Positions 6,033 to 9,238 of a DNA stretch of 17,442 bases are shown piece after piece. Made by a program: the position numbers and the translations under genes. The DNA lies in contig DHYQ01000072.1 in the NCBI GenBank assembly GCA_002414205.1, forward strand, positions 20,350 through 37,791, read 5' to 3'. Below the pieces are notes generated by a model that worked only from the letters and a program-made list of their open reading frames with translations, had not been told where the DNA came from and made no database searches. This stretch comes from Gallionellaceae bacterium UBA5126 (lineage in GTDB: Bacteria; Pseudomonadota; Gammaproteobacteria; Burkholderiales; Gallionellaceae). Each line of letters begins with the position of its first letter. The first letter of the stretch is position 1.

Positions 6033-6245
6033 TTACTTCCATTCCAGATTCAGTTTGCGTTGTGACGCCGCACAATCCCGCAGATACAAGTTGATCAGGC
6101 TTTGATAGGGAATGCCAATTTCTTCGGAAATACCTTTGAAATAATTGATGCACTCCTCGTCCAAGCGAATGGTAATTTGCTTTTTGAGTTGCGAGGTGTA
6201 AGGGTTTTTTGTGGATTTTGAAAAATCGTATTCGGTTCTCATCAT
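6033..6245 (-). CDS. brnA: BrnA-type antitoxin (ribbon-helix-helix)
   Basis: A 70-residue protein resembling BrnA antitoxins: KKQITIRLDEECINYFKG (20-37) followed by E-E-I-G-I-P-Y-Q-S-L-I-N-x-Y-L-R-D-C-A, the family hallmark. The strand KKQITIRLD would form the ribbon that contacts DNA and the following helices the dimer core; family members neutralise BrnT and repress their own operon. Two ATG codons stand side by side (6243-6245 and 6240-6242). The AGGTG Shine-Dalgarno lies 4 and 7 nt upstream of them, so the second may be used, giving 69 residues. It begins 1 nt after the brnT stop, in the usual toxin-first order. It appears intact although its toxin partner looks damaged at the N-terminus. 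Base composition is low (24 of 60 G+C in the line at 6121). Confidence 0.9.
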   Translation of the reverse strand: MMRTEYDFSKSTKNPYTSQLKKQITIRLDEECINYFKGISEEIGIPYQSLINLYLRDCAASQRKLNLEWK

Positions 6246-6246
6246 G

Positions 6247-6474
6247 TCACCTTTCGTAAGCAGCCGCTTCGTGGCGGGTCGCCTTGCGCGCTGAGATTAT
6301 GCGGATAATGTGACTTTCGGTGCGATAGCAATGGCAAACCACCAGTAGCCGCAAATTGGCGCTATAGCCCAAAAGCACAAAGCGATCTTCATCATCGGAG
6401 TGGTCTGGATCGGCAATCAGCCGTGCTTTGTCGTCATAAAACGCAGTTTTCGCTTCTTCAAAGCTGACAATCAA
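6247..6474 (-). CDS. brnT: BrnT-type toxin, N-terminally truncated
   Basis: A 75-codon frame matching the BrnT (RelE-fold ribonuclease) family from SFEEA (4-8) onward: PDHSDDEDRF, LGYSANLRLLVVCH and IIRIISARKATRHE are all in family order. What is missing is the usual first 15-20 residues, which typically read F-E-W-D-x-x-K...K-H-G just before SFEEA and form the first strand and helix. The only available start in frame is TTG at 6472-6474, with no Shine-Dalgarno before it, and an in-frame TGA stands at 6520-6522. In another frame, bases 6507-6524 read F-E-A-D-A-K, which resembles the lost beginning. The gene may be a 5'-damaged copy, frameshifted, or expressed from TTG as a short form. Only 1 nt separates it from brnA. 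A functional toxin is uncertain; family membership is firm. Confidence 0.8.
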   Translation of the reverse strand: MIVSFEEAKTAFYDDKARLIADPDHSDDEDRFVLLGYSANLRLLVVCHCYRTESHIIRIISARKATRHEAAAYER

Positions 6475-6526: not shown

Positions 6527-7588
6527 TTAGTGAGTGGATATTGTGGCTATGTGATACACGTACCCCAATGCGACGACAAACCCAACACCCAATACAGCTA
6601 CGAGTATTTTGAGGTTCTTTAATTGATTCATTCCATTAGCCTGCCGAGCGTCAAAATTTTGTGTTGTCTGCTCAAGTTTTTGCTCCAACTGTTTAATGGT
6701 TTCTTCTGTAGTTGCGTGTCGATTCGAGAATTCATCGTCAATTCGAGCGATAGATTGGGTTAGTTCATCCAAGCCCCGCTTGCTTTCTTGTTCGTTTTTG
6801 GCAACATCATTCTGAACAAATTGAATTTGAGTGACCAAAGCCTCTCTTTGCTCTAGCAATTCACTCGATTGTTTTGATTTGAATTGCTCATGACGTTCGC
6901 GCAGCTCATTGTCAAGGCCATCGCATCGACTCGCTACACGGCTAACATGTTCAATAAAATTTGCATTGAATGTTTCATTTTGTTGTAGGAGTAAATCCTT
7001 TAGGCCTCCGATTTGCTGTTCTAGCTCATTTGACCGTTTTTGCGTTTCCAGCATCTTTTCGTCAAAGGAGCGAATAAGATTGGTTTTGGTATTTTTAACA
7101 TCACTCGCAATGTCAATTAGCTTCTTAGCATTATCCGCAGTAAACCCTTGTAGATCCAAAAAGTTGTTGAGTAGTTCTTCTTGATTGCGAGAGGTCTCGG
7201 CTAATTTTTGCTGTTGTTTGCCAAGATCATCCGTATGTGCTGATATGTTGTTCGATTGCTTCTTAAGTTCTGTCTGTTGCTCCGACAGTAAGCGTTGCTG
7301 TTTCTCTAAGCGTTGAGACTGCAACATGCTGATAACCATCAATTGCCCGATTGATTTTGAGAATTCAGCCTGAACTTCCTGAGCGTTCAATTGAGCATCT
7401 TTTAACTTGTCGTTATGCCACCAGCGCGCCAGAAAATTTTTCTTTTCATATTCATTAGTAAATTTTTTTAAATCATCTAACTTATTGAAATTACTTCTAA
7501 AGTTAGTCAGTATATTGCGCATGTCTAGCTGATTTAATAGTTCAGTAGGCATATCAACTTGCGCCAAATCATGAATTAAATCGGTCAT
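6527..7588 (-). CDS. Tail-anchored coiled-coil protein, partner of the HNH-like membrane protein
   Basis: A 353-residue protein that I do not recognise. It is rich in Gln, Glu, Lys and Asn, with predicted long helices and coiled coils at about 85-135 and 165-320 and a globular N-terminal part (1-80) containing RWWHND (55-60). A single strongly hydrophobic segment (about 327-348, ILVAVLGVGFVVALGYVYHIA) lies 5 residues from the C-terminus, so the protein should be tail-anchored in the inner membrane with the coil in the cytoplasm. There is no signal peptide and no enzymatic motif. The start is well set: ATG at 7586-7588 lies 3 nt after the stop of the HNH gene, and its Shine-Dalgarno TTGGAG is formed by that gene's last codons, so translation is coupled. 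GC is low (21 of 60 at 6781-6840). Role by inference: sensor, spacer or oligomerisation arm of a two-protein membrane system. Confidence 0.85.
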   Translation of the reverse strand: MTDLIHDLAQVDMPTELLNQLDMRNILTNFRSNFNKLDDLKKFTNEYEKKNFLARWWHNDKLKDAQLNAQEVQAEFSKSIGQLMVISMLQSQRLEKQQRLLSEQQTELKKQSNNISAHTDDLGKQQQKLAETSRNQEELLNNFLDLQGFTADNAKKLIDIASDVKNTKTNLIRSFDEKMLETQKRSNELEQQIGGLKDLLLQQNETFNANFIEHVSRVASRCDGLDNELRERHEQFKSKQSSELLEQREALVTQIQFVQNDVAKNEQESKRGLDELTQSIARIDDEFSNRHATTEETIKQLEQKLEQTTQNFDARQANGMNQLKNLKILVAVLGVGFVVALGYVYHIATISTH

Positions 7589-7591
7589 TTT

Positions 7592-9238
7592 CTACTCCAA
7601 GTTGTAGTTGTTCAAACTAGCTTTCAATTCATCCATCTTTTTGCGAAAAGCGTCTATTTTGGATGGTATGTCGCGCAACATGCGCTCCTTGATCTGTAAT
7701 GTTTCCTCCCCATAACCCAAGGCACTCACCAAATTATGCTCAGCACGATTAAGGCTTGCCAATATGACAGTGTTTTCACTGAGGATTTGGTCATACAAAT
7801 AGGTATTTCGATATTGCTGTTGAATGAAACAGGCGAATTTGCCAATGAGTTCAGCATCTGCGTCCAGCTTACCCAATTGCGCTTGCAGCATTTCAGTGCC
7901 AGTTGAAGATAACCAATCGAACAGCCGGTCGATGGTGTAAATCGTAAAGGCTGTCACCAAGCCTGTCAGGATGCCTGTAAGCACCGGGGCAATGGTATCT
8001 GCAAGTGGAACCAAGATAGGAATGGTCAATAAAAATCCCTTGACGGACTCTTCAAACATCATTCCCAAAGAGCTTGTAATAACCCCTGCAATAATTTTTG
8101 TTACGGAACGGGCAATTTCCATTGTGGAAACATTCGGAGGTGGAGATACAAGCATCTTAATTGCATCCCACAACCCTTTTATTCCCTCCCGGATTATCGT
8201 GACTATTTTCGCCGCAGTCGTTACAAAATTGTTGATTACAAAGGTTAAAAAGTTGCTGATGAAACCTTGTGTTCCACCCGCAATAAAAGCATCGAATGCT
8301 TTATCCATCTTACTTTGTACGCGTTCCAGAACTTTCTTCAAGCTGATAATAATTTCATCTACCAATCCCGTTTCTGGTGGTGGCTGTTTAACAATTCGGG
8401 AAATTTCAAGATATGAACCGTTGACGAATTCAAACATCAACACCCCCATCGCTTGGCGCAAGGCATTTTTTCCAGCCTCTTTCGCGCCGGACTCCAATAA
8501 TTCTTTTCCCTGCTTTTTAATTTGAGCATGCAAAATTTCTTTTGATACATGCTCTTCTGCAACGGCAACGGTTTCGTTTAGCTTCTGCTTGTCAATATCA
8601 AAGGATTCGGCATTGGTTTTTCCGGGATCTTTTTTCCTAGGTGCCTCAGCCCATTCTCGCTTGTCTTTGTCTTGCATGGATTGATTGATACTGCTTTCAC
8701 ATGCAACGAGATTTTCAGGTGCATTGGCGATTTGTACTCGTTGCTCCTTAGTGGTAAACAAATTAGCCTCGGCACTTTTTTCAATGGCGTTGACAGGAAC
8801 CACATGATCCAAATGCGTTTGGCCGTCTTTGGTTAATTCTTTACCGGTGTAGGCACTTGTGATGCCTTCATTTTCCTGAAATGTTTTTTTACGCTTTTTG
8901 GATAAATCCTCGTCATATGCTTTGCGATCAACTGGATTATTCAAGCTATCTTGATGTTGCTTGTACCTGCTACCGTCTTCGTCAGTTGCCACAATTCCTT
9001 TTTCAAAATTATGCACAGTGGTGACATTGCCACCTGCTTTGTCTTCAAACATGGCTGAGGACAGTCCGAAAGGGCCAATAATTTGCTGAACAACTTGTTC
9101 CCGGCAGCTCATTAACAGCTCATCAAATCTTTTTTCACGCAGCGTCTTTTTGCTGACTACGAATGACGAAACTTCCTTGTTCGTATATTCAGAAGGTACT
9201 TTACCTGCGACGATATTTTCATCTGGTTGGTTGCTCAT
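7592..9238 (-). CDS. Membrane protein with N-terminal HNH-like nuclease domain
   Basis: A 548-residue protein of no family I can name. Residues about 125-197 read as an HNH (beta-beta-alpha metal) nuclease: Y130-T-G-K, then LDHVVPVN (143-150, D144-H145), then PENLVA (174-179, N176), then SSINQSMQDKDKREW with N185 and K191 in place of the final CHxxK-type element. No zinc-knuckle CxxC pairs are present. Residues 1-120 are charged and mostly helical. Hydrophobic, Gly-rich segments follow at about 323-348, 376-396 and 402-436, enough for three or four membrane helices. A helical C-terminal part (about 445-548) completes it. The start ATG has a strong AAGGAG 6 nt upstream. The gene follows tldD by 54 bp and is coupled to the coiled-coil gene. 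GC is about 37-43% in sampled lines (23/60 at 8041, 22/60 at 8521), far below tldD, suggesting transfer. Unlike colicins, the nuclease is N-terminal and no immunity gene is apparent. Confidence 0.85.
   Translation of the reverse strand: MSNQPDENIVAGKVPSEYTNKEVSSFVVSKKTLREKRFDELLMSCREQVVQQIIGPFGLSSAMFEDKAGGNVTTVHNFEKGIVATDEDGSRYKQHQDSLNNPVDRKAYDEDLSKKRKKTFQENEGITSAYTGKELTKDGQTHLDHVVPVNAIEKSAEANLFTTKEQRVQIANAPENLVACESSINQSMQDKDKREWAEAPRKKDPGKTNAESFDIDKQKLNETVAVAEEHVSKEILHAQIKKQGKELLESGAKEAGKNALRQAMGVLMFEFVNGSYLEISRIVKQPPPETGLVDEIIISLKKVLERVQSKMDKAFDAFIAGGTQGFISNFLTFVINNFVTTAAKIVTIIREGIKGLWDAIKMLVSPPPNVSTMEIARSVTKIIAGVITSSLGMMFEESVKGFLLTIPILVPLADTIAPVLTGILTGLVTAFTIYTIDRLFDWLSSTGTEMLQAQLGKLDADAELIGKFACFIQQQYRNTYLYDQILSENTVILASLNRAEHNLVSALGYGEETLQIKERMLRDIPSKIDAFRKKMDELKASLNNYNLE

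Follow-up and report, generated by a model that had tools for sequence, protein, structure and literature searches.

Two adjoining genes in a 17,442-nucleotide stretch (20350-37791) of contig DHYQ01000072.1 from Gallionellaceae bacterium UBA5126 (the whole stretch is called the window here) encode a 548-residue membrane protein with an HNH motif (B) and a 353-residue coiled-coil protein with a C-terminal membrane anchor (C). The pair matches the already listed candidate defence system PDC-M40, and comparison of relatives adds two features that appear to be new here and go beyond that listing, namely that the HNH part of B behaves as an exchangeable cassette and that the partner proteins seem to be exchangeable as well. 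Neither feature was found described in the open-licence literature, and the term PDC-M40 was not found there either. The reading that I favour, with modest confidence, is that of a two-gene module against phages (or other foreign DNA) in which a membrane-fixed HNH nuclease is controlled by its partner and its cassette is exchanged on a fixed chassis.

When the four proteins of the block of low guanine-cytosine (GC) content that holds the pair were scanned against PADLOC-DB 2.0.0, B matched PDC-M40B over residues 30-516 (E 6.3e-115) and C matched four PDC-M40C models, the best of them over residues 5-310 (E 5.5e-14). The first-pass annotation of this DNA was right in its observation of two genes, which is real; its proposal of a new system is not supported, since both proteins are already modelled. 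PDC-M40 consists of a SUKH-type protein (A), the nuclease (B) and the coil (C), and the order B then C of the window is also that of Klebsiella, where one plasmid encodes a 169-residue SUKH (SMI1/KNR4) protein that matches M40A (E 2.3e-75) directly before B, and a second carries an SMI1/KNR4 gene, B and C consecutively. The window differs in that its C resembles the C models only distantly and that its genome (2.03 Mb in 113 contigs, judged 78% complete) contains no match to PDC-M40A. According to a 2026 paper, PDCs were derived by guilt-by-embedding and validation was still pending for most of its core set (PMC12988326), and a second report describes tests of two other PDCs that showed no sign of activity (PMC12409345).

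By its sequence, B carries an HNH motif. A search that scored only the 7996 candidates with most words in common returned 295 homologues at E <= 1e-3, and in an alignment of the best 120 of these 295, window included, H145, R167, N176 and N185 are identical in 120/120, whereas position 144 holds D in 114 sequences and E in the other 6. A more diverse set of 14 (the window, two database homologues, ten proteins from plasmids and one from a jumbo phage), with identity to the window protein down to 20%, keeps D144, H145, N176 and N185 in every member. Residues 127-192 match Pfam GmrSD_C (E 5.6e-5; 23.5 bits, cut-off 23) and B also matches endonuclease VII in PHROGs (E 8.8e-5), so that the HNH-like N-terminal part proposed at first pass holds. 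An HNH fold is expected to show strand, strand and helix in that order, and the AlphaFold2 model of B has strands at 141-145 and 177-181 and a helix at 182-188, within a region (about 81-240) where the predicted local distance difference test score (pLDDT) exceeds 90; the mean pLDDT is 81 and the predicted template modelling score (pTM) of the whole protein is only 0.48. Fold comparison pointed to endonuclease I and to the HNH domains of Cas9, both at modest scores; for the whole model, none of 46 Foldseek matches in the PDB reached E <= 0.001, and one of 157 in the viral fold set did, a relative from Aeromonas phage LAh10. A sequence search of solved structures with B alone gave three matches (best E 0.32), none relevant, and its alignment-based counterpart gave 23 matches, all weak (up to E 1); the one among them that fits the HNH part is 7p9k (E 0.85, positions 128-189), a DUF262 protein (BrxU). 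The likeness of B to GmrSD-type restriction enzymes consists of this weak profile match and of the GmrSD_C match, which lies just above a cut-off that the other cassette classes tested miss; unlike those enzymes, B has no DUF262 (GmrS) domain at E <= 1 and has a membrane part in its place. An HNH fold is probable, and the conserved motif suggests that B would cleave DNA by HNH chemistry.

Both proteins are predicted to sit at the membrane, B as a membrane protein and C as a tail-anchored rod, as the first-pass annotation had also concluded. Hydrophobic windows lie at residues 331-349, 399-417 and 418-436 of B, and with a looser cut-off the 120 aligned sequences have four such windows between 320 and 450 in 93 cases, three in 21, two in 4, five in 1 and one in 1. 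For C, with 138 homologues at E <= 1e-3, the single hydrophobic window is 326-344, preceded by a conserved part (residues 1-175, mean pairwise identity 60-72%) and a variable coil (176-320, 20%). The best hydrophobic window is at the C-terminus in 110 of 116 C sequences of at least 290 residues (four shorter ones were dropped from 120), and the model of C is helical, with a single helix from 151 to 352 (pLDDT 84, pTM 0.32). Among solved structures C had 53 matches (up to E 0.1); most were apolipoproteins or similar long helices aligned with the coil part, and they were put down to composition.

Close relatives of B occur together with C. At a cut-off of 430 bits for B, chosen after the fact, there are seven separate loci, and C directly follows B in six: the window, an uncultured Holophagaceae contig found by a single-protein scan of genome contigs (L002, where C runs off the contig end), E. 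coli (L009, the same as L056), a further genome from the order to which the window belongs (L101), a contig from the viral database (L024) and a Klebsiella plasmid (L050). In the seventh, also a Klebsiella plasmid (L010), an IS5 element stands after B instead. With tblastn, C was matched in nine plasmid records (five E. coli, four Klebsiella; 48-65% of its length covered), and its coordinates place it beside B in 9/9. More indirectly, 16 B/C pairs, the window's own included, were matched by an equal length of the longest contig of the source among the homologues listed for each protein (the best 120 of 295 for B, 120 of 138 for C), against a mean of 0.83 and a maximum of 4 with shifted lengths. 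One locus with a weak coil match only has it two genes from B (L018). A C-profile search of 369 genomes of the class gave 12 matches; the 11 outside the window, none of which begins before position 155 of the model (the coil part), probably represent unrelated coils. Nuclease scans of viral contigs returned the same single contig twice (L024, again as L088), and the coil scan of those contigs returned no match but is insensitive, because L024 does encode the coil.

The cassette emerges when parts of B are compared separately, in every case at the protein level. Over the 120 B sequences, residues 33-77 have a mean pairwise identity of 67%, the membrane part one of 56% and the HNH core one of 43%, and among 71 pairs at least 90% identical in the membrane part, the HNH core is below 35% in 26, at 35-60% in 13 and at least 60% in 32. 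Proteins P0064 and P0109, for example, share 98% of the N-terminal motif, 96% of the membrane part and 99% of the C-terminal coil but 19% of the HNH core; among isolates, V. parahaemolyticus and E. coli B share 91% of the motif, 93% of the membrane part and 13% of the cassette (78-245), compared with 93%, 94% and 87% for Pectobacterium and the same E. coli protein. Breakpoints fitted in 39 mutually non-independent pairs (membrane part at least 85%, HNH core below 35%) have medians of 78 and 245 (quartiles 76.5-79 and 245-250), and 4 of 14 multi-member membrane clusters (at least 88%) contain two or more HNH clusters. Judged by hhalign, the cassette classes are still related to one another, with probabilities of 95.3, 95.5, 99.7 and 99.9 for the largest class against the other four and of 43 to 99 among the smaller ones. 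Across the 16 contig-matched pairs, whose comparisons are not independent, C tracks the membrane part more closely (rho 0.52) than it tracks the cassette (0.29), and there is no correlation between membrane part and cassette (0.06). Residues ~78-245 behave as an exchangeable cassette, and recombination is the proposed cause. In type I restriction specificity subunits (HsdS) an internal variable domain is likewise exchanged between conserved flanks; in B the exchanged part holds the nuclease motif and the protein is membrane-bound. Separately, open frames of 176-229 residues in six genomes (G323, G1231, G1320, G1376, G823 and G954) match the HNH part only and could be a source of cassettes.

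The partners vary too. In a survey of 28 loci, some near duplicates and two (L029, L059) with weak or partial B matches, C was found by profile in 5 and a coil without a C match lay downstream of B in 2 (L012, from annotation, and L027, whose coil is anchored at its C-terminus). Upstream of the B relative there was an N-terminally anchored protein of 178-291 residues in 8 loci (L011, L015, L030, L051, L052, L053, L057 and L058, directly before it in each), one of which resembles TerB/DUF533 weakly and below the cut-off, a PDC-M09A-type protein in 7 (by PADLOC match in L013, L016, L017 and L028, by eye in L019, L031 and L054) and JukA in 2 of a single operon type (L014, L055); 1 locus had an IS5 element after B and 3 had no recognised partner. 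A cysteine-rich YkgJ-type gene follows the B relative in 6 of the 7 PDC-M09A-type loci. The recurrent order of a glycine-rich anchored PDC-M09A-type protein, an HNH-membrane protein and a small YkgJ-type cysteine-cluster protein (L016, L017, L019, L028, L031, L054), in some cases with WYL or TerB genes close by, looks like a separate candidate system. There is a fair chance, if a little below even, that the B-type proteins form one class of membrane-anchored immune nucleases, in which a catalytic HNH cassette is recombined at fixed junctions near residues 78 and 245, the membrane chassis is kept and sensor partners such as the rod, PDC-M09A, the short anchored protein or JukA are plugged in.

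The JukA loci (L014 4621-8413, L055 3621-7413) consist of a WYL-domain gene, the JukA-matching gene and the HNH-membrane protein, after which come genes for a radical SAM protein and a histidinol-phosphatase, and the B relative lies directly downstream of JukA in Raoultella and Enterobacter plasmids. JukA is described as a sensor of early phage proteins with varied effectors, including JukB, which JukA recruits and which makes tetrameric pores (PMC13282480). The logic of a recruited membrane effector is possibly common to both systems; they differ in that the window's genome, at its 78% completeness, has no JukA match, C does not match JukA, and no JukB model is among the PADLOC matches of the B-type protein of either the window or Raoultella. 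The first-pass interpretation as a whole is partly supported; its inference that the coil senses or assembles at the membrane and licenses the nuclease gains some weight because a B relative adjoins this known phage sensor.

On the favoured reading, B would be fixed in the inner membrane through its C-terminal half with the HNH part in the cytoplasm, and the conserved N-terminal ~175 residues of C would touch either the membrane part of B or a phage signal. Phage proteins or DNA at the membrane would then cause C to gather or unlock B there, a recruitment suggested by analogy, and B would cut the entering DNA; recombination between the conserved flanks would swap the cassette, changing the warhead and leaving chassis and partner in place. 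The HNH motif, the hydrophobic membrane part, the tail anchor, the pairing in close relatives and the differences in cassette and partner can all be read directly from the sequences, and a role in sensing and defence is what they may add up to. The weight that can be put on sensing by the coil is limited. The adjacent pair recurs in unrelated genomes among close relatives, but B relatives at 383 bits or less are mostly without C, the 369-genome class set has five further B-positive genomes in which C had no match, and JukA adjoins a B relative in just a single operon type.

The higher conservation of the membrane part than of the HNH core would suit an abortive system, in which the membrane part is the effector (a pore or other damage), the HNH part is a sensor or cuts host DNA, and the infected cell dies. 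I consider this unlikely, if worth keeping in mind: N329, T332, N336, K344 and R350 are polar and invariant or nearly so within the membrane part, the Klebsiella nuclease has a SUKH-type gene (M40A) in front of it and JukB forms pores, but the HNH motif is retained in every aligned sequence and the membrane part has no clear channel fold, with CorA transporters turning up in Foldseek at E 2.5 or worse only and a resemblance to oleosin falling below the cut-off; that the membrane part had no clear fold match is in itself of little significance. A weapon between bacteria or plasmids that is akin to polymorphic toxins, with an immunity protein and an HNH toxin whose toxic domain can be exchanged, would account for the cassette differences and the SUKH neighbour in Klebsiella; it is improbable given that the cassette lies inside the protein, with a conserved part on either side, rather than at the C-terminus, that no secretion or export domain scores above cut-off in Pfam or NCBIfam and none is convincing in PHROGs, that the window pair has no adjoining SUKH gene and that relatives occur on jumbo phages. 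Housekeeping or plasmid maintenance unrelated to phages has just as small a chance, for although plasmids carry relatives (74 records when no identity limit is set) and no phage phenotype is known, the pair has a low GC content in the window and B is patchy, with matches in overlapping samples of 6/369 genomes (class), 4/299, 4/301, 2/62 and 7/399 (order), several of them weak or, as in 4 of those 7, to the HNH part alone, and a near-identical copy in 2/5,426 E. coli genomes (one chromosomal, one on a plasmid).

Within the order sample, 6 same-genus and 6 same-family genomes gave no B match. The idea of broken B copies in G969 and G1217 was dropped, because their open frames of 550 and 524 residues are intact and the counted stops lie at or beyond the gene end by coordinates. 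Zorya, to which the first-pass annotation had likened the logic of the pair, is similar in outline only, in that a long coil anchored in the membrane has a second protein next to it. Zorya (ZorAB) is defined by a ZorA with a MotA/ExbB motor domain and a ZorB with a peptidoglycan-binding domain, and since B and C have neither the motor domain (Pfam MotA_ExbB) nor any likeness to ZorB (Pfam, PADLOC, E <= 1), membership was rejected; the ZorA3 match of C (E 0.0068) is limited to model part 295-509, which is coil alone.

The features of the locus are collected in Table 1. Both open reading frames lie where the first-pass annotation had put them, in a low-GC block (B 42.6%, C 39.5%) beside the toxin-antitoxin locus that it had also recognised. 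The Shine-Dalgarno sequence that the two genes were said to share is in fact two, AAGGAG before the ATG of B and a separate TTGGAG for C just 5' of the B stop codon.

Table 1. Features of the B/C locus, with positions in the window
Feature	Position	Strand	Basis or remark
B, membrane-anchored HNH protein (PDC-M40B type), 548 residues	7592-9238	-	Open reading frame, Pfam, PADLOC-DB, homologues, AlphaFold2 model
N-terminal motif of B, residues about 33-77, IGPFGL..MF.DK.GGNVTT.HN	9008-9142	-	Conserved in alignments
HNH cassette of B, residues about 78-245	8504-9007	-	Approximate limits, from protein breakpoints in relatives
Membrane part of B, residues about 255-450, hydrophobic helices	7889-8476	-	Model, hydrophobicity, alignment
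Intergenic gap B/C, 3 nucleotides	7589-7591	-	Ribosome-binding site of C sits in end of B gene
C, tail-anchored coiled-coil partner (PDC-M40C type), 353 residues	6527-7588	-	Open reading frame, PADLOC-DB, homologues, model
BrnT/BrnA type II toxin-antitoxin pair	6033-6474	-	Downstream of B/C pair, same low-GC block; Pfam E 4.4e-20 and 2.8e-7
pmbA			Upstream of pair; GC 63.4%; identified by eye
ABC-F-type gene			Downstream of pair; GC 58.5%; identified by eye

An Rfam scan gave no match, and promoter and terminator scans scored no higher than shuffled sequence. PmbA and its upstream neighbour are kept together in 7/7 genus or family regions read (from 12 such genomes) and in 8/8 other regions of the order; the ABC-F gene of the window is not in place downstream in those regions, which have weak ABC matches only, and for this reason no clean empty site could be demonstrated. 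A mobile setting is seen in some relatives. In E. coli CUPF06 the chromosomal pair lies between pstS and Tn7-like tnsE/tnsD genes, with an IS5 gene before it and an IS1634 gene after it, and may be Tn7 cargo. A Sau3AI enzyme gene lies near the relative in L011 and csm6 near that in L052 (from annotation only, without a background count), and in L101 (4160-5587) the pair has upstream of it a gene whose first residues look recombinase-like by eye. A distant B relative is present in seven records from four Aeromonas phages, each about 260 kb long; in phage D3 (L013, 4934-7530) it adjoins a PDC-M09A-type gene and possibly serves superinfection exclusion, and in the jumbo phage LAh10 it is annotated as 'putative cobalamin adenosyltransferase'.

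If the favoured reading is correct, it would supply the candidate PDC-M40 with a mechanism, that of a nuclease parked at the membrane where phage DNA enters. Should the wider class of immune nucleases be real, the cassette would set the choice of target or evade phage inhibitors, similar to the target-recognition domains of restriction enzymes. A partner in common with Juk would tie this candidate system to known biology. The cassette exchange itself offers natural chimeras that allow a direct test of the HNH part as the determinant of phage range.
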